Positions 43,630 to 53,914 of a stretch of DNA of 64,000 nucleotides are shown here, in pieces. Within the stretch, counting starts at the first letter, position 1; every line of letters begins with the position of its first letter. The position numbers were made by a program, and so were the translations under genes. This stretch comes from Hanstruepera ponticola (GTDB lineage: Bacteria > Bacteroidota > Bacteroidia > Flavobacteriales > Flavobacteriaceae), in contig NZ_JABANC010000002.1 of assembly GCF_012931685.1 (NCBI RefSeq), positions 372,001 to 436,000 of the forward strand, written 5' to 3'. Below the pieces are notes generated by a model that did no database searches, was not told the DNA's origin, and was given only the letters and a program-made list of their open reading frames with translations.

Positions 43630-43758
43630 CAAAATTAAATTAGGTATTTAGGCATGTGATGCGGGTTAAAAACGTGATTTTTTTTAGGCTTGATTTTGAG
43701 GGTTTTTATGGGTTGGAAACGGGATTGACTTTAAAATTGTAAGAATTTTCGATGGCTT

Positions 43759-43919
43759 ACCCGAAGTAAACCCGAAGGAGACCCGAAGTAAACCCGAAGG
43801 AGACCGCAAGGAGCACCAAGGGAAAGCGCTTTAAAATGTGTTTTTGTAGGAATTTTCACAGCTTGACCTGAAGGAGACCTTAAGGAGACCTGAATAAAAC
43901 CTGACGAAGACCTTAAGGA
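43759..43919. repeat. Two blocks of 11-bp degenerate tandem repeats
   Basis: Block 1 (43759-43823): ACCCGAAGTAA, ACCCGAAGGAG, ACCCGAAGTAA, ACCCGAAGGAG, ACCGCAAGGAG and a decayed sixth copy. Block 2 (43865-43919): GACCTGAAGGA, GACCTTAAGGA, GACCTGAATAA and two further variants. The 11-nt unit is not a multiple of three, so any reading frame across it is fortuitous. The stretch 43630-43944 otherwise holds nothing I recognise. It borders the cassette array. Confidence 0.85.
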
Positions 43920-43948
43920 AAATTGACCAAAATTTGCCCCTGACATCT

Positions 43949-44100
43949 ACGTATAAGTACGTATGGTTTAAGTGGGTAAAAATGATTAGATTTGGGTAGC
44001 GGTATAAACTCACTAGTAAACATATATGCCTTATTTGGGTGCAAAAGCACACTTTTTTGGTATATATATAATACATAAGTGTTATACATACGTTATGCCC
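43949..44100 (+). repeat. attC-like site A (left end of array)
   Basis: The 5' arm ACGTATAA (43949-43956) pairs with TTATAC...CGT of the 3' arm, which ends GTTATACATACGTTATGCCC (to 44100). GTTATGCCC (44092-44100) is a perfect 9-bp complement of GGGCATAAC (45418-45426) at the other end of cassette 1. Confidence 0.65.
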
Positions 44101-44111
44101 AATTTGAGGAA

Positions 44112-45425
44112 ATGACACAGCACAGAAAAAGAAATAAAAATTTGGGTTTGGCTGAACTAATTGCCATTGCTCTTGGAGGAATGGTTGGTGGTGGAATTTT
44201 TACAATACTTGGAATTTCAGTTTCATTAATCGGAAACCTTACACCAATTGCTATAATTATTGGCGGACTGATTGCATCGTTAGCTGCTTATTCTTATGTA
44301 AAATTAGGACTTTATTATAAAGATGAAGGAGCAACATATTCCTTCTTTAAACGAACTTATCCGAATTCTAATTTTTCAGCTTCTGCAATTGGTTGGTTTA
44401 TCATTTTTGGTTACATAAGTACTTTAGCATTATATGCTTATACATTTTCATCTTACGCCATAAGTAGTACTGAATTTGCTGATAACGTTTGGATTAGAAA
44501 AGGAATAGCAATAGGAGTTATTGGAGTATTCACTTTTATAAACATTTGGAGTGTTAATGGAATGGGTAAGATTGAGGACTTAATGGTTTATACCAAACTT
44601 ATTGTTTTAACTATTATTTCAATTGTTTTAATAAGTCACGGAACAACTGACTTCGGTTCCTTTGTTAAGAATATGACTTTAGATTTACAAGAATCAAGTG
44701 TCTTTTCTATCTTAATTGTTGCTTCTCTCACCTTTGTCGCATATGAAGGTTTTCAATTGGTCATTAACGCAGTAAATGAAATGACTAATCCTGAAAAAAA
44801 TATACCAAGAGCAATTTATAGCGCTATTTCATTAGCTGTACTAATTTATGTTGTTATATCAATGGGAGCGTTGTTCGCAATTCCAACAGAGGAAATTATT
44901 AAAAATAAAGAATTTGCACTTGCATCTGGAGCAGGGAATATTTTAGGAAAATTAGGGACAAATCTTGTTATTTTAGGTGCGATTTTAGCAACAAGTAGTG
45001 CAATTAGCGGAACTGTCTTTGGCTCTTCACGTCAAATGTCTGTCATTGCAAAAGATGGTTTTTTTCCTCATATCTTATCCATTAGAAAAAATAACAGTCC
45101 TCAAAATGCAATTTTAGCAATGGCAATAATTTCTAGTATTCTAATCTTAATTGGTGGATTAGAATTAATTCTTGAATTTGGAAGTGTTACTTTTCTTTTA
45201 GTATCACTATTAATGGCATTAGCGAATTTTAAAATAAGAGATAAAACTAATTCATCGTCATTTCTGACTATACTTTCAATAATTGGATTAAGCATTGGTG
45301 GAATTTTAATTCTTTATTATGAATTGACAAATAATTGGCAACAAATGTTAGTGATAATTATCCTATATATTTTACTTGCTTTTGGTGCTTGGAAGTTTTC
45401 ATCTAACGAAAAAAACAGGGCATAA
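44112..45425 (+). CDS. APC family amino acid permease (cassette 1)
   Basis: A 437-aa transporter with about 12 helices. The first helix has the APC signature GLAELIAIALGGMVGGGIFT (about residues 12-31), with the unwound GGGIF segment that binds the amino acid carboxylate. Later come EGFQLVINAVNEMTNPEKNI and SGTVFGSSRQMSVIAKDG, also typical. I take MTQHRKRNK at 44112 as the start. An in-frame ATG at 44079 lies inside the site A palindrome. The stop codon TAA is part of the 5' arm of site B (GGGCATAAC). Substrate unknown. Confidence 0.9.
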   Translation: MTQHRKRNKNLGLAELIAIALGGMVGGGIFTILGISVSLIGNLTPIAIIIGGLIASLAAYSYVKLGLYYKDEGATYSFFKRTYPNSNFSASAIGWFIIFGYISTLALYAYTFSSYAISSTEFADNVWIRKGIAIGVIGVFTFINIWSVNGMGKIEDLMVYTKLIVLTIISIVLISHGTTDFGSFVKNMTLDLQESSVFSILIVASLTFVAYEGFQLVINAVNEMTNPEKNIPRAIYSAISLAVLIYVVISMGALFAIPTEEIIKNKEFALASGAGNILGKLGTNLVILGAILATSSAISGTVFGSSRQMSVIAKDGFFPHILSIRKNNSPQNAILAMAIISSILILIGGLELILEFGSVTFLLVSLLMALANFKIRDKTNSSSFLTILSIIGLSIGGILILYYELTNNWQQMLVIIILYILLAFGAWKFSSNEKNRA

Positions 45426-45550
45426 CAACGTGTATAATCCATGCTGCTTCGCTACTCCAATTTTAATTACTAACTTTAAAACATCTGATTTGCAGCTGAA
45501 TCTGACTACGTCTGATTCCGCACAAATCATACACGAAACCGTTGTGGCTA
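45418..45550 (+). repeat. attC-like site B
   Basis: 5' arm GGGCATAACAACGTGTATAA (from 45418); 3' arm CATACACGAAACCGTTGTGG ending near 45550. ACAACGTGTAT pairs with ATACAC...CGTTGT, with four unpaired bases (AAAC) in the 3' arm. GTTGTGGCTA (45541-45550) is complementary in 9 of 10 positions to TAGCTACAAC (46875-46884) at the end of cassette 2. Confidence 0.72.
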
Positions 45551-45566
45551 ATTTAAACCAATCATT

Positions 45567-46877
45567 ATGAAAAAAACAAGTTTATATTTTACGTTATTAT
45601 TGGTCTTTCTTTTTTTAGAAAAAATAATAGCACAAGATAGTTACATATATCCAGGTAATGAATGGGATTACATTTCTAAAAAGTCACCATGTAGTCCAAT
45701 AAATCTGCTAAAACGTTATGCAATTGACAGCTTAAATACAACAGGATTATTAATTATTAAAGGCGGGAAAATTGTCTTGGAGTATGGTGATACGGAGGAA
45801 ATAAGTTATTTAGCATCTGCTAGAAAAAGTATATTGAGCATGATGTATGGGAAGTATGTTGACAACGGTGTTATTAATCTCAATAGCACTCTTGAAGAAT
45901 TAGGAATTAATGATGTTAACCCACTAACAGAAGAAGAAAAGCTAGCTACAGTAGACCAAATTATAAATGCAAGATCTGGAGTTTATCTTCCAGCTGCTAA
46001 TGCAGGATCCGGTCCTGATATGCCCGAACGAGGTCAATACAGACCTGGAGAGCATTTTTATTATAATAACTGGGATTTCAATGTAGCAGGAACCATTTTT
46101 GAGCACAAGACTGGAAAAAATATTTACAAAGCTTTTGAAGAGGATTTTGCCATTCCTTTGGGATTTCAAGATTTTAAATTAGAGAATCAAAGAAAGTATA
46201 GTAATGATAAAGTTTCAAAGCACCCTGCGTATCATTTTTATCTTTCCACAAGGGACATGGCAAGACTTGGATATCTTATGTTAAGAAAAGGTAATTGGAA
46301 TGGAAAACAAATCATTCCAGAAAACTGGATTGATAAAACAACAACAGAGGTTAGCAAAACTAGTTACAGCCTTTTTAAGGGTTACAGTTATATGTGGTGG
46401 TTGCATATTGATTCCGATTATAAATTACTCAAAGGTGCTTATACTGCTGCTGGTGCTTACGGACAATATATTACTGTTATTCCAGAATTAGATATGGTTA
46501 TTGCCCATAAAACTAAAGCAGTTTATCAACGTAGTACTCAAATACCAGAATACGAAAGATTTATAATTAAATTAATTGAAGGCGAGAATAAAGCAATTAA
46601 CGCTGATAAAAATATAGACCTAAATGTATTTACCGGAAGTTATACTGACAACTCTGTTGAAGGTCAACCAATGAATCTGGAAATTGTTATAGACGGAAAA
46701 AACTTAAAAATAAAAGGCCCTATTTTCCCCCAACCTGTTAATATAGTTCTTTGTAGTGAAACAACTGGAGTATTAGATGTAGCTCAAATGGGTTATCCTA
46801 ATTTAATGTTCAAAAAAGACAAAAACGGAAAAATACTTGGCTTTAATGTCATGAATATGTTTATAAAGAAAAACTAG
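45567..46877 (+). CDS. Serine hydrolase, beta-lactamase class C/EstB family (cassette 2)
   Basis: A 436-aa exported enzyme, signal peptide about 1-22 (MKKTSLYFTLLLVFLFLEKI). Active-site S-x-x-K in LASARKSILSM (about residue 83), the Y-x-N motif in FYYNNWDFN (about 170), and a possible third motif near GAYTAAGAYGQYI. A small C-terminal beta domain (about 350-436) follows. Class C-like hydrolases include esterases, DD-peptidases and aminopeptidases; activity cannot be assigned. The stop codon TAG is the first part of site C. Confidence 0.88.
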   Translation: MKKTSLYFTLLLVFLFLEKIIAQDSYIYPGNEWDYISKKSPCSPINLLKRYAIDSLNTTGLLIIKGGKIVLEYGDTEEISYLASARKSILSMMYGKYVDNGVINLNSTLEELGINDVNPLTEEEKLATVDQIINARSGVYLPAANAGSGPDMPERGQYRPGEHFYYNNWDFNVAGTIFEHKTGKNIYKAFEEDFAIPLGFQDFKLENQRKYSNDKVSKHPAYHFYLSTRDMARLGYLMLRKGNWNGKQIIPENWIDKTTTEVSKTSYSLFKGYSYMWWLHIDSDYKLLKGAYTAAGAYGQYITVIPELDMVIAHKTKAVYQRSTQIPEYERFIIKLIEGENKAINADKNIDLNVFTGSYTDNSVEGQPMNLEIVIDGKNLKIKGPIFPQPVNIVLCSETTGVLDVAQMGYPNLMFKKDKNGKILGFNVMNMFIKKN

Positions 46878-47032
46878 CTACAACAAAGATGGCTTATTGC
46901 GGTTGAACTCCTAATCGGAATTGCTTCGCCAGTTCGCTATGCTCGTGTCATTGCAATTTGCTATCTTTCGGTTACGGCGGAAAATCATAGCTAATTTCCC
47001 GCAACGAAACCATAGCCCAACCGTTGTGGCAA
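46875..47032 (+). repeat. attC-like site C
   Basis: 5' arm TAGCTACAACAAAGATGGCT then TATTGCGG; 3' arm CCGCAACGAAACCATAGCCC then AACCGTTGTGGC. Inner arm bases differ from other sites, but the pairing (GATGGCTTATTGCGG with CCGCAA...CCATAGCC) is kept. The centre contains CGCCAGTTCGCTATGCTCG, shared with site F. GTTGTGGCAA (47023-47032) matches TTGCCACAAT (47996-48005) in 9 of 10 positions. Confidence 0.72.
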
Positions 47033-47049
47033 ATTAAACCAAGATAATT

Positions 47050-47994
47050 ATGAAAAAATCAGAATTCAATTTTTTAACCTTGTTAACGTTTTCACTCTTC
47101 TTTTTCGTCTCGGTTTCATATGGACAGGACAAAAAAATGGCAGAATTAAAAGATGCATCACTTGAATATTATGATTTAGGTGGAGAAGAAGTTCCTTTAA
47201 TATTTATTCACGGAGATAGCAGAGACATTAGTCAATACGATGAGTTTATACTGAATTTCGAAGAATCCAACCGAATAATTGGTTATGGAAGAAGAGGCTA
47301 TGGTAATAGTAAAGCAAAAAATCAGGAAAAAGGTTTACAAGCAGATGCCAATGATTTATTGCAGCTAATGGCCTATTTAGAAATTGACAAAGCCGTATTT
47401 ATTGGAAATTCATATGCTGGTTTTTTGATGACACATTTAGCCGAAAACTATCCTAAAAAATGTATCGGGCAAATTTATTTGGCAGGTAATCCAGGTGCAA
47501 CCTTTAAAAACATTATTGCAAAAGATACATTGAATGCTCATAAAATGATGTTTTGGGCACAAGCTGGTGAAGACTACGCTAATGAGACTGTCAAATTTAA
47601 TACATCCTTTAGTCCAAATTACGCTCAAGAAGGATATACTATACCTAATGTTCCTGCACTTGGATTTTTAAATAGCAATAATACCAGAGGTATTGAGAAT
47701 ATGAATGTCATCTTAATTTATGCTCAAAGGGCTGATAATATTCCATATCAAGAGCCAAAGGTTTTTTTTAAAAAAATAGCTTCTGATTCTTTACTAATAA
47801 AACAAGTTGAACAATTTGACAAAGATGTTGTTAAACCAAACTTAATCCAAGATTCAAAGATGTGGGTTGAATCTTTTCCTTCGCTTCAAATTGTAAATTT
47901 ACCTATACCATTCATTACTGGTTATGAATTTGAAAGAAAACCTGAATTAATTATTGAACCTATACAAAACTTCTTAAATAGTTTAAAGAAATAA
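47050..47994 (+). CDS. Exported alpha/beta hydrolase (cassette 3)
   Basis: A 314-aa protein with signal peptide about 1-26 (ending VSYGQ) and an alpha/beta hydrolase fold. Oxyanion-side motif IFIHGDSRD (about 56-64), the GYGRRGYG turn, and nucleophile elbow I-G-N-S-Y-A-G with Ser at about residue 122. The acid and His positions are less clear; a conserved His is not obvious near the C-terminus, so activity is uncertain. It starts 17 nt after site C and ends 2 nt before the matching base pairs of site D. Confidence 0.83.
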   Translation: MKKSEFNFLTLLTFSLFFFVSVSYGQDKKMAELKDASLEYYDLGGEEVPLIFIHGDSRDISQYDEFILNFEESNRIIGYGRRGYGNSKAKNQEKGLQADANDLLQLMAYLEIDKAVFIGNSYAGFLMTHLAENYPKKCIGQIYLAGNPGATFKNIIAKDTLNAHKMMFWAQAGEDYANETVKFNTSFSPNYAQEGYTIPNVPALGFLNSNNTRGIENMNVILIYAQRADNIPYQEPKVFFKKIASDSLLIKQVEQFDKDVVKPNLIQDSKMWVESFPSLQIVNLPIPFITGYEFERKPELIIEPIQNFLNSLKK

Positions 47995-47995
47995 C

Positions 47996-48136
47996 TTGCC
48001 ACAATATTGTGTATAAGTAATAGCGGTTTAAGTCATAAAACGAAAACAAAACATAAAAAAAACGTCAGTTCAAAACTAAAAAGTTAGTGAGTAAAAATCC
48101 GCTACTACTCATACATAAAACCGTTGGCAATAACTT
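47996..48136 (+). repeat. attC-like site D
   Basis: 5' arm TTGCCACAATATTGTGTATA then AGTAATAGCGG; 3' arm CCGCTACTACTCATACATAA then AACCGTTGGCA. TATAAGTAATAGCGG pairs with CCGCTACTACTCATA. GTTGGCAATAACTT (48123-48136) is complementary in 13 of 14 positions to AAGTAATTGCCAAC (49111-49124) at the end of cassette 4. Confidence 0.75.
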
Positions 48137-48194
48137 TGACGGTAACAAAAAACTTCCTTATTCGTCAATTTCATATATACCAATCAATGATATT

Positions 48195-49139
48195 ATGAAA
48201 AACATTTTAGTAAACGCCAAAGTGAAAAGATTAAAAGCTGGGTGGCGTATCCTTTTATTTCTATTAATCTTTTTTACATTTTCAAGTCTTATTTTCATAG
48301 TTAAACCTCTATTTGGTGCCATAACAAAAAGAGCGTTTTTAGAGGATTACAGTTTAATAATAGTTTCAATTTTAGCCTTTGGAGCAACGGTATCTGTTTA
48401 TTTGTCAAGAAAATTTTGGGACAAAAAGACTTTTATTTCTTTAGGTTTGGAATGGAATAAACAGACCATAAAAGACTTGGTTTTTGGATTTATTTTGAGT
48501 GGCTTAATGGCTGCTGTATTTTTTCTACTGTTACTTTTATTTGGACTATTAGAATTCAATGGTTTTAATTTTCAAGAATCAAGTTTAAGTAATTCATTTA
48601 ATTTTGTACACTTTATGAGCGTTGTGACTGTTGGCTCTATGGGACTAATGCTGCTCGAACACATTTTGGTTGGTTATTGGGAGGAATTAGTTTTTAGAGG
48701 CTATATTTTTCAAAATATTGTAGAAGGTTTGGGCATAAAAATTGCAATTATAGTTTCTTGTCTCTTATATGGATTAATTCACTATGCAAATCCTAATGCA
48801 ACAATTTTATCTTCTATAATCATTATAGGTTTTGGTTTCTTAAGATTATATGGCTATTTAAGTACACAAATGCTTTGGTTATCTATGGGAATGCATATTG
48901 GTTGGAATTTTTTTCAAGGTCCAATATTTGGTTTTGCAGCGAGCGGGCATAAAAAAGCAACTCTACTACAACATTCTTTTTTATCTGACCGACATTATCT
49001 AACTGGAGGAGAGTTTGGACCTGAAGGAAGTGTATTCATAATACCAATCTTGATATTGACATTATTAGTTATGAAATGGTATTCTAAAAAGAATTATCCA
49101 AATATTAAAAAAGTAATTGCCAACGCCTTGTATAATTAA
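48195..49139 (+). CDS. CPBP family intramembrane metalloprotease (cassette 4)
   Basis: A 314-aa membrane protein with about eight helices. CPBP (CAAX protease and bacteriocin-processing) motifs: EELVFRGYIFQNI (E-E-x-x-x-R, about 178-190), the His of LLYGLIHYANPNA (about 207), and GMHIGWNFFQG (about 249). The ORF is open upstream to a GTG at 48087, but that lies inside site D, so MKNILVNAKVKRL at 48195 is the likely start. The last seven codons (IANALYN) and the stop are encoded within the 5' arm of site E. Confidence 0.9.
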   Translation: MKNILVNAKVKRLKAGWRILLFLLIFFTFSSLIFIVKPLFGAITKRAFLEDYSLIIVSILAFGATVSVYLSRKFWDKKTFISLGLEWNKQTIKDLVFGFILSGLMAAVFFLLLLLFGLLEFNGFNFQESSLSNSFNFVHFMSVVTVGSMGLMLLEHILVGYWEELVFRGYIFQNIVEGLGIKIAIIVSCLLYGLIHYANPNATILSSIIIIGFGFLRLYGYLSTQMLWLSMGMHIGWNFFQGPIFGFAASGHKKATLLQHSFLSDRHYLTGGEFGPEGSVFIIPILILTLLVMKWYSKKNYPNIKKVIANALYN

Positions 49140-49252
49140 TGCTCACCTTCTACTCCAATTTAAAATCTTATATTTAGACAACTGATTTGCTATAATTGAA
49201 ATCCTAAGGACCTTCAATTGCACAAATCATACACTATCACGTTGTACGCAAG
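49111..49252 (+). repeat. attC-like site E
   Basis: 5' arm AAGTAATTGCCAACGCCTTG then TATAATTAATGC; 3' arm GCACAAATCATACACTATCA then CGTTGTACGCAAG. GCACAAATCATACAC is identical to site B. GTTGTACGCAAG (49241-49252) is complementary in 10 of 12 positions to CTAGCCTACAAC (50445-50456). Confidence 0.7.
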
Positions 49253-49310
49253 CTTGAAAATAAATTCTGTTTTATTGATTCTTCTCATATTAAACATAGA
49301 TGACGTAATA

Positions 49311-49331
49311 ATGTCGTAAACATGACGACAT
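49311..49331 (+). promoter_or_regulatory. Candidate operator upstream of membrane/HTH gene pair
   Basis: Perfect inverted repeat ATGTCGT-N7-ACGACAT, 56 nt before the ATG at 49388. A further GACGTAATA half-like element is next to it on the left. It is the only strong palindrome in the leader of a cassette that encodes its own XRE-type regulator. Confidence 0.6.
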
Positions 49332-49387
49332 CAATGTCCACACTACTGTTTTAATTTTGTTTCAAACATTTAATCGTAGTTATATTA

Positions 49388-49873
49388 ATGGAAACAGAAT
49401 TAGATATCAATCAAAAATCAACAGTTTATCGAGCTTTTCAACTCGCCAAAATTCCAATAATAATTGCATTAATTTTAACACCTATTCGCTTCTTACTTGA
49501 ACTAATTGGATTACCTAATAGTGCTATTTTTATTATTGGATTGCTTTGGCTAACATTAGCATTTGCAATTTATTGGGGAACAAAGTTATATAATACAAAA
49601 CATGCCTATCTTTTACTATTGTTGAGTTTGCTAATTTATTCACCAATTTCAAGGTTTCCAGTTGCGTTGTTTTGGTGGATTGACACAAATTGGGAAATAG
49701 GCACACATTATGGATTATATTTTAATAATTTTGGACAAGCTCTATTAAATCATATAGGTTATGGATCTCTGGTACAAATAATACCTGGATTTATATTAGG
49801 CTCAATAACAATTGCATTTATGAGTAATAGAAAAAATGAGATACAAAAAACTAATACTTTAGAAGATGAATAA
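49388..49873 (+). CDS. Small multi-pass membrane protein (cassette 5, first gene)
   Basis: A 161-aa protein with four predicted helices (about 18-38, 44-62, 70-92 and 120-146). No domain is recognised. The gene overlaps the XRE regulator gene by 8 nt, so the two are probably translationally coupled. It may be the functional partner or target of the regulator. Alternative names cannot be supported. Confidence 0.75.
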   Translation: METELDINQKSTVYRAFQLAKIPIIIALILTPIRFLLELIGLPNSAIFIIGLLWLTLAFAIYWGTKLYNTKHAYLLLLLSLLIYSPISRFPVALFWWIDTNWEIGTHYGLYFNNFGQALLNHIGYGSLVQIIPGFILGSITIAFMSNRKNEIQKTNTLEDE

Positions 49874-50441
49874 GAATCTTTTAGGACTAAGAATAAAAGA
49901 ATTAAGAAAACAAAAAGGGATGTCTCAAGAGTTTCTATCCGATGAATCAGGACTAAGTTTAAGAACTATTCAACGAATTGAAAATGGAGAGACAAATCCA
50001 ACTGGTGAATCTCTCAAACGATTATCAAATGCATTGAATGTAAATCCTGATGAATTAATTGATTGGTCTATAAAAGAAGACAAAAGATATTTGACGTTTC
50101 TAAATCTTTCAGCCCTAACTTTTCTATTCTTTCCTCTACTTGGAATTTTAATACCATTCATACTATGGACATCACGAAAAGGAAAAATCAAAAACATCAA
50201 TAAATTAGGAAAAGACCTAGTCAATTTTGAGATAACCTGGACATTACTTCTATTTTTTATTCCTTTTTTATGGTTTCTCTTTTCAAAAATTGGAATATTA
50301 GAAAGTTTTACTCTAAAAAGGATATTCATTATTATTGGGGTTATGTACTTCATAAATTTAATTTTCATATTACTAAATACATTAAGAATTAGTAATGGAA
50401 ATGATATAATTTACAATCCCAAATTTAAATTTTTAAGATAA
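49866..50441 (+). CDS. XRE-family HTH protein with C-terminal DUF4870-like membrane domain (cassette 5, second gene)
   Basis: A 191-aa protein. Residues about 5-60 are an XRE/Cro helix-turn-helix: LGLRIKELRKQKGMSQEFLS, then SGLSLRTIQRIENGETNPTG. The C-terminal part (about 75-175) has three or four helices, resembling the DUF4870 domain in a known class of HTH-DUF4870 membrane-tethered proteins. It may bind the inverted repeat at 49311-49331. The stop lies 3 nt before the matched bases of site F. Confidence 0.85.
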   Translation: MNKNLLGLRIKELRKQKGMSQEFLSDESGLSLRTIQRIENGETNPTGESLKRLSNALNVNPDELIDWSIKEDKRYLTFLNLSALTFLFFPLLGILIPFILWTSRKGKIKNINKLGKDLVNFEITWTLLLFFIPFLWFLFSKIGILESFTLKRIFIIIGVMYFINLIFILLNTLRISNGNDIIYNPKFKFLR

Positions 50442-50444
50442 AAT

Positions 50445-50611
50445 CTAGCCTACAACAAGGTGTATAATTCATTGCTAATACCCGCCTACTTACGAAAATT
50501 GCTAACGCCAGTTCGCTACGCTCGTGTCTCGCGGATTTTCAGTTTGGTGAGTACTTGCAAAGTTAAACGTTAAATCACTTATCTACTCATAGCCAAGACC
50601 GTTAGCACATT
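50445..50611 (+). repeat. attC-like site F
   Basis: 5' arm CTAGCCTACAACAAGGTGTA then TAATTCATTGC; 3' arm CATAGCCAAGACCGTTAGCA. The centre has AACGCCAGTTCGCTACGCTC between GAAAAT and GATTTTC, an inner hairpin. TTAGCA (50602-50607) pairs with TGCTAA (51256-51261) at the end of cassette 6, a weaker match than in other cassettes. Confidence 0.65.
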
Positions 50612-50708
50612 TTCAAAACTGATATCGAAAATCTCTTTTTTTAAACTGTAACATTCATAAAACATTCTTGTCTTGTATAAGTAGCTAAAAAAAACTAATC
50701 AACAGAAT

Positions 50709-51275
50709 ATGTTCTACAGAATTTTATTTATAATGGGAATTAGCTTCCTTTTAATTGGACAAATAATTCTTTCAAAAGGTAATGCGTTTGTCTACAGCCT
50801 CGAACCAATTGATTTTGCTCATTGGTCTTTACTTGTTGGCGTTGTCCTGCTAATTCCTCAAGTAATCTCATTTCCCAAGAAACCTTTTAGTTACATAGGT
50901 ATACCTCTAACTATCATCGGAATAACCTGTATAATCGGCATGTGTGTAATTGATTTTATTTTTTGGAGTTTCACAAATGATCAATTACGTGATGATTTTA
51001 CGAACCACATAACTCAAGTCCCATCGATCTGGAAAACGTTTATGACTATTGGACCAAGCTCGAAAGTATTTAATCTAGGATTGTTAACATTAAGTTTGAA
51101 CTATTGGAAAACTGAAAAGTTGGGTGTCGGAATTTTAATTCTCGCAACATTGATTTTATGGCATGTTATTCCTACTCCTCATAGGTTAATTTTTGGATAT
51201 TCATTTACGCTTATTGCATTCGGAATTATACTTTTTGGCAAAGACATAAAAACCATGCTAAAACACCGTGTATAA
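50709..51275 (+). CDS. Multi-pass membrane protein of unknown function (cassette 6)
   Basis: A 188-aa protein with five or six predicted helices (for example MFYRILFIMGISFLLIGQII at the N-terminus, LLVGVVLLIPQVI, and YSFTLIAFGIILFGK near the end). No family is recognised. The final codons and stop TAA lie in the 5' arm of site G (CACCGTGTATAA), as in the CPBP cassette. Confidence 0.7.
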   Translation: MFYRILFIMGISFLLIGQIILSKGNAFVYSLEPIDFAHWSLLVGVVLLIPQVISFPKKPFSYIGIPLTIIGITCIIGMCVIDFIFWSFTNDQLRDDFTNHITQVPSIWKTFMTIGPSSKVFNLGLLTLSLNYWKTEKLGVGILILATLILWHVIPTPHRLIFGYSFTLIAFGIILFGKDIKTMLKHRV

Positions 51276-51392
51276 TTAATTGCTTTGGTCGTAGCTTATT
51301 TGGAAAATTCCTTCGTAATTTTCTCGCGTTCGTTTTTGTTTGCTAAATTAGTTGCTTAAACATGTCACTAGCCATAGACTAAACCGTTTGCC
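51255..51392 (+). repeat. attC-like site G
   Basis: 5' arm ATGCTAAAACACCGTGTATA then ATTAATTGC; inner hairpin GAAAATTCC-TTCG-TAATTTTC; 3' arm ending ACTAAACCGTTTGCC (to 51392). Outer complementarity of this cassette's ends is poor, so the site is more diverged than B-E. Confidence 0.55.
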
Positions 51393-51410
51393 AAACATTA
51401 CGTAAAACTC

Positions 51411-51845
51411 ATGAAAAAAAGAACAATAGCATTATTACTTTTGATTATCGGACTTGCTTTGAGTATAGCCTTTATCATGAAGATTGAATTTCCTCAAGGG
51501 TTCGAGTTATATTTTAAAAGAGCATACTATAACCAATATGGTCCATTAGCAATAAGTGTTGAATTGTTATTTGCAAGCTATTATCTATTTATTGGGCATA
51601 AAAAGACTAATTTCACTTTGGCTCTTTTTGGTTTTACAGCATTGTTAGATCCCTTTTTTAATCAAATTGGGCTTTTCAATAGTATCGTGCCTTTATATGG
51701 TACAATAATTTTAGCGATTTGTGCAGTGTTATGTTTATGGTTGGCATTTTCAAACCCATTTAAATTAAAACGTTTATCTCATTTGGCAGCCATATTAAGT
51801 GTTGTACTTGGTGTTTTTATTGAGCTTTTCTTTAATTACATATAA
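51411..51845 (+). CDS. Small membrane protein of unknown function (cassette 7)
   Basis: A 144-aa protein with four predicted helices, starting MKKRTIALLLLIIGLALSIA and ending in a hydrophobic segment VVLGVFIELFFNYI. No family is recognised. It follows site G by 18 nt, in the standard cassette position. Confidence 0.7.
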   Translation: MKKRTIALLLLIIGLALSIAFIMKIEFPQGFELYFKRAYYNQYGPLAISVELLFASYYLFIGHKKTNFTLALFGFTALLDPFFNQIGLFNSIVPLYGTIILAICAVLCLWLAFSNPFKLKRLSHLAAILSVVLGVFIELFFNYI

Positions 51846-51855
51846 TGTGTGCTAA

Positions 51856-51905
51856 GAAACAATGTGTATATTTAATTATCCTACCTTAACAGAAACCGCA
51901 GACTA
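51856..51905 (+). repeat. Short decayed attC-like site H
   Basis: AACAATGTGTATATTTAATT resembles a 5' arm. It is followed within 45 nt by AGAAACCGCAGACTAATG, which resembles a 3' arm (GAAACCGTTGTGGCTAA). The centre is missing. The interval at 52710-52766 has the same layout (ACAACATCGAG...TTTAATTATCCTACC...GAAACCACTAACTAATG). Confidence 0.45.
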
Positions 51906-52709
51906 ATGATTAAGTTCTTTAGAAAAATTAGACAAAATTTACTTTCAGAAGGAAAAACTGGAAAGTATTTAAAGTATGCGATTGGCGAAATTGTGCTTGT
52001 CGTGATTGGCATCTTAATAGCACTACAATTAAATAACGCCAATGAGGATTGGAAAAAAGAAAAATTGAGGCAAGAACTTTTAATTGAACTTCGATCAAGT
52101 ATAATGTCTGATACTATTGTTCTTAAAAATGAAAGAAAAGACTTGAAATCGGCTTATACTAATGCCAATCTATTAATTAATATCATTAATGACGATTTAC
52201 CATATACAGAATCTTTAGATTCTTCTTTGGCATTAATTGAATTGGCAAAAATAAAAAGAGCCGATTATAAAATATTTGATAGGCTCTTAAATATTGGAAT
52301 TGACATTATTGATGACAAAGATTTAATAAATGAAATTGTTCATTATTATGAAGATTCAAAAAATTTAGAGGATATCGGTCATGAAGAAACAAAACTATTA
52401 AAGGAAAAAATTTATCCAAATTACTTTGATAGATATAGATATGGCAGGAAAGCCAAACCAAATGATTTTGAAAAATTAAAAAAATCTACGGAATTTAAAA
52501 TTGTACTTGATTATGTATCTGGGAATTCATTATTCTTAATTAAAAGATCTATACACCGAAAAAATTTGGCAACAGAAATACTAAAAATTCTTGATACAAA
52601 AATTACATCTGAAACAGTTTTGTCTGTAAAAGAACCCTACATAAAAACTATGGAGAAAGATTCAATAGATATTGCTAATGAGATTGAAAATTTAAAAAAT
52701 ACTAAATAA
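51906..52709 (+). CDS. DUF6090 family membrane protein (first copy)
   Basis: A 267-aa protein. The first about 48 residues are MIKFFRKIRQNLLSEGKTGK followed by YLKYAIGEIVLVVIGILIAL, a cytoplasmic amphipathic stretch and one transmembrane helix (DUF6090 signature). The rest is a predicted periplasmic, mostly helical domain rich in Lys/Asp/Glu. It is a paralogue of the next gene, near-identical in the first 45 residues but divergent after. Function unknown. Confidence 0.82.
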   Translation: MIKFFRKIRQNLLSEGKTGKYLKYAIGEIVLVVIGILIALQLNNANEDWKKEKLRQELLIELRSSIMSDTIVLKNERKDLKSAYTNANLLINIINDDLPYTESLDSSLALIELAKIKRADYKIFDRLLNIGIDIIDDKDLINEIVHYYEDSKNLEDIGHEETKLLKEKIYPNYFDRYRYGRKAKPNDFEKLKKSTEFKIVLDYVSGNSLFLIKRSIHRKNLATEILKILDTKITSETVLSVKEPYIKTMEKDSIDIANEIENLKNTK

Positions 52710-52766
52710 CCAAATTACAACATCGAGTCGCTTTAATTATCCTACCATTTTAGAAACCACTAACTA

Positions 52767-53492
52767 ATGATAAAATTCTTTAGAAAAATTAGACAAAACT
52801 TGCTTTCTGAAGGCAAAACTGAAAAATATTTGAAATATGCAATTGGTGAAATCATTCTTGTGGTTATTGGGATTTTGATCGCGCTTCAAATAAACAATTG
52901 GAATGAAAAAAGAAAAGAACGTAATAAAGAAGACCAGCTAATTGACGTTTTAATTACTGACTTACAATCAAAAAAAGCTGAATTCACATCTGATTTAGCC
53001 ATAGGAAAATCAATAATTCGTAATTCTGATGTATCAATTAATTATTGGAAAAAAAGTAGTGACATAGATACTTTAAATTTAAAATACCTACTAAAATATT
53101 TAGCTGAAGACGAATGGTTTTTTAATGAAAATTCACCCGTTTATGCAACTATTGCGGGTTCTGAATTATGGAAACAATTACCAGATAGCTTAAATAGACA
53201 AATTGATAATATGTACAGAATACAGTTCGGGTTAATCAAGTCAGCATTTGCAAAACAAAGCGAATATGCCTTAAATGGTAAATTAAACTTTCTCGCACCA
53301 AATCATCTGTTAAATCTAAATGAAAGCACATTAAATCTGCAGCGAATAGTAGCAGAAAATGATGAGGACTTTATTGTTTTCCTTGAATTATTTAAAAGTG
53401 GAGTTATTCGGTTGACTTCTAAATTTGAAACGACTATTCCTTCTATTGATAGGCTTATTGAAAATTTAGAATTCTATAAAAACGATAAATAA
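52767..53492 (+). CDS. DUF6090 family membrane protein (second copy)
   Basis: A 241-aa paralogue of the preceding gene, with the same N-terminal anchor (MIKFFRKIRQNLLSEGKTEK, then YLKYAIGEIILVVIGILIAL and N-N-W-N-E). The C-terminal domain (about 60-241) is different in sequence but similarly helical. The leaders of both genes share TTTAATTATCCTACC and GAAACC...ACTAATG, pointing to duplication of the unit followed by divergence or replacement of the 3' part. Confidence 0.82.
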   Translation: MIKFFRKIRQNLLSEGKTEKYLKYAIGEIILVVIGILIALQINNWNEKRKERNKEDQLIDVLITDLQSKKAEFTSDLAIGKSIIRNSDVSINYWKKSSDIDTLNLKYLLKYLAEDEWFFNENSPVYATIAGSELWKQLPDSLNRQIDNMYRIQFGLIKSAFAKQSEYALNGKLNFLAPNHLLNLNESTLNLQRIVAENDEDFIVFLELFKSGVIRLTSKFETTIPSIDRLIENLEFYKNDK

Positions 53493-53499
53493 AAAGTAA

Positions 53500-53530
53500 C
53501 CCATTACAACGTGTACAGCTCATAACCGTC
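53500..53530 (+). repeat. attC-like half site I (right end of array)
   Basis: CCCATTACAACGTGTACAGC resembles the 5' arm of sites B and F, 8 nt after the last cassette stop. No matching 3' arm is seen before the minus-strand DUF3820 gene, so the array ends in a truncated site. Confidence 0.55.
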
Positions 53531-53677
53531 GCCTATTTGCTGTTCTTGTATCTTAAGGGTTTTTACTGCTTTTAGTTTCTGAAATATTTATGGAATTAAA
53601 GAATAAAACGAATAATACAAAATTTCTTAATACTATTGCTCGTTTTCAGCTACCCTTTTTAAAATAAAAGACAGGTT

Positions 53678-53914
53678 TTATTTCTTTGGAAAGTTGGTCT
53701 TAATGTTTCTGATTAACTCTTCCAATCCGTTTACTTTTAGTTCATAAACTGTTTGTAAGTATTCTCCTAATTTGCCTTTTGGGAACCCTTTTGTGTGGTA
53801 CCAAACCACATAGTATTCTGGTAAGTCTATTAAATAACGGTCTTTGTATTTACCATAAGGCATTTTGGTATGTGCCAATTTTATTAAGAAATCCTTATCG
53901 GGTTGTAGCGCCAT
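53678..53914 (-). CDS. DUF3820 family protein
   Basis: A 78-aa protein matching DUF3820: KMPYGKYKDRYLIDLPEYYV (about residues 17-36) and WYHTKGFPKGKLGEYL (about 38-53) are the conserved core. The molecular function is unknown to me. It starts directly after the stop of the DUF922 gene. Confidence 0.87.
   Translation of the reverse strand: MALQPDKDFLIKLAHTKMPYGKYKDRYLIDLPEYYVVWYHTKGFPKGKLGEYLQTVYELKVNGLEELIRNIKTNFPKK

Follow-up and report, generated by a model that had tools for sequence, protein, structure and literature searches.

Integron-like gene cassettes in Hanstruepera ponticola with ends complementary to their own trailing sites, and a candidate recombinase at the head of related flavobacterial arrays

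The cassette array at the pyrG locus

The window (64,000 nucleotides of Hanstruepera ponticola, contig NZ_JABANC010000002.1, positions 372,001 to 436,000) holds at the pyrG locus a tandem array of gene units that spans 44092 to about 51390 and is followed by a degenerate tail reaching about 53530 (Table 1). All of the genes lie on the + strand, and each unit carries one gene, save for cassette 5, which carries two. As judged by Pfam, the cargo consists of an amino-acid permease, hydrolases of the beta-lactamase and alpha/beta families, a CAAX-type protease, an HTH/DUF4870 regulator, and small proteins of no recognized family. Two congeners (G003 and G004) also have arrays at the pyrG locus, and the left boundary of the window's array is homologous to the heads of theirs.

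Table 1. Features of the cassette array, in window coordinates
Feature	Position	Strand	Start	End	Remarks
Whole insertion relative to congeners	43640..53686	.			Flanks ~60 bp apart in G001, G002
Left boundary before cassette 1	43996..44091	+		...GTTATACATAC^GTT	Putative attI-like remnant, degenerate
Cassette 1	44092..45426	+	GTTATGCCC	GGGCATAAC	
Cassette 1 gene	44112-45425	+			Amino-acid permease, PF13520 E 5e-44
Site S1 (AAC ... GTT)	45424..45543	+			Bottom-strand hairpin
Cassette 2	45541..46884	+	GTTGTGGCTA	TAGCTACAAC	End pairing
Cassette 2 gene	45567-46877	+			Serine beta-lactamase family, PF00144 E 1.4e-18
Site S2	46882..47025	+			nhmmer E 7e-7
Cassette 3	47023..48005	+	GTTGTGGCAA	TTGCCACAAT	End pairing
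Cassette 3 gene	47050-47994	+			Alpha/beta hydrolase, PF00561 E 4e-9
Site S3	48003..48125	+			Long central stem, fold z -3.9
Cassette 4	48123..49124	+	GTTGGCAATAACTT	AAGTAATTGCCAAC	End pairing
Cassette 4 gene	48195-49139	+			CAAX-protease-like, PF02517 E 3e-14; stop codon within site
Site S4	49122..49243	+			
Cassette 5	49241..50456	+	GTTGTACGCAAG	CTAGCCTACAAC	
Cassette 5 gene a	49388-49873	+			No Pfam hit
Cassette 5 gene b	49866-50441	+			HTH + DUF4870
Site S5	50454..50603	+			nhmmer E 1e-15
Cassette 6	50601..51264	+			Own-end match weak, 7/14; gene 50709-51275
Site S6	51262..51388	+			nhmmer E 2e-19
Degenerate right part	51386..53530	+			Gene 51411-51845 and two DUF6090-like genes; read directly, DUF6090 matches
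Remnant half-sites in right part	near 51846, 52715, 53505				

Two kinds of repeat accompany the array. Between pyrG and the first cassette (43726-43919) there are short tandem-like repeats of GACC(C/T)NAAGGA, which G003 and G004 also have at this locus in altered form. In the degenerate right part, the starts of the neighboring DUF6090-like genes (51858-52058 and 52719-52919) are 76% identical over 200 bp, and starts that resemble them recur in many flavobacterial genomes. The same genome (G000) has four more clusters of sites, on contig 7 (23558-28441 and 575315-582071) and contig 8 (125067-129284 and 68840-69889).

Cassette starts match their own ends

A reading of this DNA from sequence only had noticed that the first nucleotides of five cassettes are complementary to the site that trails the same cassette, and had taken this as the mark of a unit that circularizes. 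All ten of the end sequences it gave lie where it placed them, and the match counts it gave for cassettes 1 through 5 (9/9, 9/10, 9/10, 13/14, and 10/12) are exact. The pairing spans about 14 bp, GTT/AAC counted in. The permutation test that it called for was run with six starts and six ends, taking in cassette 6, whose own match is weak (7/14); the right end of the array is degenerate. Of the 720 possible pairings, the true one is alone in scoring best, with 67 matches against a mean of 46.7 over all permutations (P = 1/720). In every cassette of the window that was tested, the start pairs better with its own trailing end (12, 12, 13, 11, and 7 matches per 14) than with the preceding arm (9, 10, 5, 6, and 4, in the same order).

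The idea would fail, the sequence-only reading went on, if in larger arrays a start were no more complementary to its own site than to others. In fact it is clearly more so. Flavobacterial loci searched with a site profile yielded 242 sites and 156 cassettes. Over the 156, the mean number of matches per 10 informative positions is 8.33 with the cassette's own end, 4.08 with the preceding arm, and 3.98 with other cassettes. The summed own score is 1300; in 20,000 permutations the mean is 625 (sd 20) and the maximum 708 (z 33.5). These counts are not fully independent, since the sites and cassettes have common ancestry. Four arrays from genomes with complete, single-contig chromosomes, holding 36, 44, 61, and 82 cassettes, give the same picture: 7.06-8.45 matches per 10 with the own end and 3.7-4.8 with the preceding arm or other ends (preceding arm 3.74-4.82), giving z of 9.8-21.9. 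The rule extends to the first cassettes at the attI-like site described below, where at most of the loci tested the start matches the far end of the same cassette.

One position within the outer stem stands apart. At position 11, 115 of 126 well-paired cassettes have a conserved A.C mismatch, as read on the top strand, which on the bottom strand is a T.G wobble. The length of the pairing is another matter. Canonical cassettes of R388, read by eye as a control, show own-end complementarity of 7 bp (dfrB2) and 12 bp (the next cassette), and because of the latter, own-end pairing longer than 7 bp is not unique to the flavobacterial system.

Might the units instead be non-autonomous transposons with unit-specific inverted ends, or dispersed hairpin repeats of the MITE or REP type? 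Each unit does have imperfect inverted ends, and the hairpins recur across the genome. But the ends of transposons are common within a family, whereas here they vary and are compensated unit by unit. A repeat with inverted ends of its own would pair within the linear site, where there is no pairing beyond GTT, and the units lie head to tail behind a recombinase. I give this explanation almost no credence. That dispersed repeats explain the pattern poorly was already the view of the first reading, and it is borne out by own-end pairing, in larger arrays as in the window, without pairing to the neighboring arm.

A hairpin favored on the bottom strand

Sites typically measure about 120 bp. Each begins with R'' ending in AAC, and 3 nt separate this from a central stem of 16 bp (GTGTATAATTAATTGC / GCAACTAATCATACAC, with variants) and a variable loop with inner hairpins; on the right side there are 6 nt, mostly ending ACC or CAC, and then GTT. 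In 40 aligned sites, 95% of the cells in the stem are paired, and both sides have changed in 10 of 19 pairs. Covariation in the stem is 0.315, compared to 0.099 when shuffled and no more than 0.104 when slid. The sites have what is looked for in attC (an imperfect hairpin, R''/R' and L''/L' boxes, and a G^TT core with an AAC partner), a likeness of structure only.

The mismatches that the central stem tolerates are nearly all A.C on the top strand, which is to say G.T on the bottom strand, and one such G.T is invariant in 40/40 sites. Counted over those sites, wobbles number 101 as bottom-strand G.T versus 7 as top-strand G.T. By DNA energies, the bottom strand is predicted to fold more stably than the top in 148/156 sites. 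Stability also depends on what follows GTT: a site joined to its own cassette's start, as it would be in a circle, is computed to be more stable than it is in the array in 140/152 cases, by a mean of 4.8 kcal/mol, and in 137/156 more stable than when joined to a foreign start drawn at random.

This asymmetry bears on the possibility that the pairing acts in mRNA, the 5' and 3' ends of a transcript coming together in a loop or terminator and the repeats being RNA structures. In its favor, the units are co-directional single-gene transcripts, with hairpins just past their stop codons. However, the tolerated mismatches are A.C on the coding strand, unpaired in mRNA, and it is the bottom strand that gains the G.T pairs, which argues against an action in RNA. 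Nor would it explain why cassettes keep the same edges in different genera or are associated with an attI-like site, and a search of Rfam gave no match. An explanation at the level of mRNA is therefore very improbable.

An exact IUPAC pattern for the sites has no match in the window's genome, and a first detector that used no motif was dropped, as it gave as many hits in shuffled DNA as in the window. When the cassette that ends in site S1 is compared with its homologs in L115 and L118, the body and R'' end are kept and the loop of the trailing site differs, which suggests fast change or exchange within sites.

A recombinase and an attI-like site at the head of arrays

Arrays in relatives are headed by a tyrosine recombinase that reads in the same direction as the cassettes, with at least two genes downstream. 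A database scan for this recombinase gave 80 loci, nearly all flavobacterial. Sites number 162 on the strand of the recombinase and 7 on the other, nearly all of them downstream. The family occurs in 186/300 Flavobacteriaceae genomes (62%) and in 151/237 genera. Complete genomes have up to 132 sites (with no more than 150 candidates scored), some having about 100 or more. Hanstruepera congeners have one or two recombinases of the array-head type each. The window genome has no member of the family and no IntI, its tyrosine recombinases being two of XerC/D size and two others; despite this it has 35 sites in all. Several other genomes likewise have sites without the recombinase.

In dozens of loci a conserved stretch, putatively attI-like, follows the stop codon of the recombinase gene, typically 15-50 bp away. 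Its consensus is ...GTTCCTnTTATCC... TATATTT...ATATAACnA^GTT, with a conserved ATATAACNA^GTT site. By position it would serve as an attI adjacent to its integrase gene, at the gene's 3' end. Just before the first GTT, L087, L027, and L079 have an imperfect inverted repeat of the type GTTCCTTTTATCCGG / CCGATAAACGAGAAC, apparently varying between loci in a compensated fashion. The repeat may perhaps mark binding sites of the recombinase.

What sort of recombinase is it? Its catalytic core is like that of XerA/XerC-type recombinases, with NCBIfam NF040815 (XerA-type) as the best match, at 221 bits to a cut-off of 220 (L001). The model is named site-specific tyrosine recombinase/integron integrase. 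It differs from recombinases of the XerA/XerC type in its extra N-terminal domain and in its location at the head of a cassette array. The recombinase itself falls short of the cut-off for integron integrase, and the integron integrase model TIGR02249 scores below its cut-off in all five genomes of the genus (5/5), positions 183-239 being unmatched. Residues 183-246 of structure 2A3V have no match in the recombinase, and an alignment to IntI1 leaves a gap of about 43 residues. Judged by these alignments, the recombinase lacks the IntI-specific insert, and it falls outside a definition of integrons that calls for IntI with its insert. IntI1 is placed among the flavobacterial proteins in the recombinase tree, where its branch is very long, and for that reason the tree was not used to judge common origin with IntI.

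The N-terminal extension, about 95 residues, among them the conserved W42 and S43, is predicted with confidence to be folded (pLDDT ~85). Pfam returned only sub-threshold hits to it (DUF5710, E 0.025). A search by fold gave XPB from Archaeoglobus and the HARP domain of SMARCAL1 as best matches, statistically weak ones (E 0.1-0.2, probability 0.80-0.97). XPB and HARP domains are structure-specific DNA-binding domains, and the predicted fold hints at a weak resemblance to them. By itself, the domain is found in 61/395 Bacteroidota genomes, other classes included, although in some of the 61 the match is another protein, judged by length.

Signs of movement in cassettes and arrays

A 968-bp cassette is common to Winogradskyella, two species of Hanstruepera, Tenacibaculum, and another flavobacterium, at 86-92% nucleotide identity, and is found more distantly in a second Winogradskyella, occupying the first or later positions of arrays. 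The best alignments start with the G of GTT, and those that include a shared site stop within about 0-3 nt of the next G. Cassette 1 occurs in another genus (G349, L115) at 84% nucleotide identity, behind a different site and with the same start, GTTATGCCCAATTT. The region of cassette 5 (49240-50472) is matched at 87% nucleotide identity in G152 (L114).

In congeners G001 and G002 the flanks of the array are about 60 bp apart and the entire array is absent from the locus, while G003 and G004 have one at the same place. That of G004 (L140:600-680) begins with a clear attI-like site and the 3' stub of a recombinase gene. I take the window array to be, most likely, the remnant of a complete system whose recombinase has since been lost; otherwise it would be served in trans. 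Many contigs (among L013-L092 and G001-G004) end inside or beside sites, so draft assemblies break in arrays and undercount cassettes.

Comparison with integrons

The arrays are like integrons (IntI/attI/attC), particularly sedentary chromosomal ones, in their tandem, co-directional, single-gene cassettes with a G^TT core, in the division of R'' and R' between neighbors, in a bottom-strand hairpin with an unpaired central spacer, and in arrays of as many as 85 sites that begin with a tyrosine recombinase and an attI-like site. The flavobacterial recombinase differs in missing the IntI-specific insert and in having the N-terminal extension. It also differs in arrangement: the recombinase is co-directional with the cassettes and the attI-like site comes after the 3' end of its gene. 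The outer stem is about 14 bp, with the conserved T.G at position 11, and the strands are distinguished by G.T wobbles rather than by two demonstrated extrahelical bases.

An opposing view is that these are remnants of classical integrons (CALIN), attC cassettes of a canonical IntI since lost and with no relationship to Xer-like recombinases. The sites are attC-like in structure, and the window, with six sites and neither IntI nor the family recombinase, answers to the definition of a CALIN, at least two attC sites with no integron integrase nearby. Phage P12002L, a lytic phage of Polaribacter, lends the idea some support. Its sites are reported as attC (CALIN) in divergent directions, with no cognate integrase proposed in the parts of the article consulted, and IntI1 is described there as recombining the bottom strand of one of them at the rate of the standard control, the top strand giving no recombinants (PMC9892861). 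This assay also counts in favor of the integron-like cassettes proposed below. By my detector the phage (L144) has five sites of the flavobacterial family (best nhmmer E 6e-10), to no particular one of which the assayed attC was matched. They surround methyltransferase genes, and the phage has no recombinase. Between 29.2 and 39.7 kb there are apparently several cassettes, with methyltransferase and small genes and own-end complementarity as judged by eye.

Against a lost IntI, no IntI scores above cut-off in the genus, and a recombinase that is not IntI heads arrays with a conserved attI-like site across Flavobacteriaceae. The stub at the same locus in G004 belongs to the array-head family and not to IntI. 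Descent from a lost IntI is unlikely on these grounds, if a little less so than the explanations by repeats or by mRNA. The circularizing unit of the first reading is supported by the own-end rule, and independently by the shared edges, the array-free locus in congeners, the recombinase and attI-like site, and the hairpin stable on the bottom strand. It works like an integron; that it is a classical one is not supported, the recombinase not being a canonical IntI.

A model for cassette movement

I propose, with high confidence, that the window holds an array of integron-like cassettes moved as circles by the array-head recombinase family, with a cut at G^TT and insertion at an attI-like site. 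Each unit begins at G^TT, reaches as far as the G of the following site, and ends in an attC-like site of its own on the 3' side. The linear array splits the outer stem, leaving the left arm (R'') in the unit and placing the right arm, after GTT, in the next. Excision between neighboring sites would join the unit's G to its own TT, and only then would the outer stem be complete. The bottom strand of the circle could then fold into a hairpin and be bound by the recombinase. A cut at G^TT would follow, made by this tyrosine recombinase, and the circle would be inserted at the attI-like site just past the recombinase's own gene.

A site in an array is mispaired in its outer stem beyond GTT/AAC, which should make it a poorer substrate than the circle. 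Since the circle's site pairs better than those of the array, insertion would be favored over excision, leading to net capture of cassettes.

Relatives outside the flavobacteria and a wider distribution

According to IntegronFinder 2.0, within Bacteroidetes proper a complete integron is found in Salinibacter only (PMC9024848). The literature search met no account of cassette arrays with such a recombinase in Flavobacteriaceae, subscription papers lying largely outside it. This would apparently be an undescribed, widespread, integron-like system of gene capture in flavobacteria, with a different kind of integrase. With the candidate integrase in so large a share of the Flavobacteriaceae genomes sampled, a large gene-capture system may be escaping current tools.

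Among described systems, the rAID cluster of Bacteroidales (recombinase-associated acquired interbacterial defence) comes nearest in recombinase and layout. There a tyrosine recombinase lies upstream of short genes that all read in its direction and have conserved motifs between them (PMC12247911). Conserved intergenic motifs are found here as well, and so, in relatives though not in the window genome, is a recombinase upstream of at least two co-directional genes. The cargo differs: orphan immunity genes in rAID, but permease, hydrolases, CAAX protease, and regulators in the window. The sites differ too: those of rAID have an ATT core and a length of about 55 bp, and by sequence they cannot be recognized as the longer flavobacterial kind.

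An immunity-gene cluster on a Bacteroides ovatus plasmid (L127), which lies behind a related recombinase and matches the description of rAID, obeys the own-end rule, with 59/70 own-end matches compared to 32.7 when permuted (0/200,000 as high), a score lowered by one start having been placed 2 nt too low. In the recombinase tree the L127 protein groups with flavobacterial recombinases of the L003 type. The model above would offer a likely mechanism for rAID immunity-gene arrays.

A broader version can be put forward more tentatively, as an idea that may well prove wrong: that there is a second lineage of integrons across Bacteroidota, rAID included, in which a Xer-type recombinase recognizes bottom-strand hairpins by their G.T wobbles through a fused HARP/DRD-like, structure-specific domain that stands in for the IntI insert, and a stem complete only in the circle makes insertion exceed excision, so that arrays stabilize themselves. 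The insert of IntI has been described as essential for integron function (PMC8138268); in the flavobacterial recombinase it would have a natural substitute. A further array, on a Chryseobacterium plasmid, follows the own-end rule in 3/3 cassettes.
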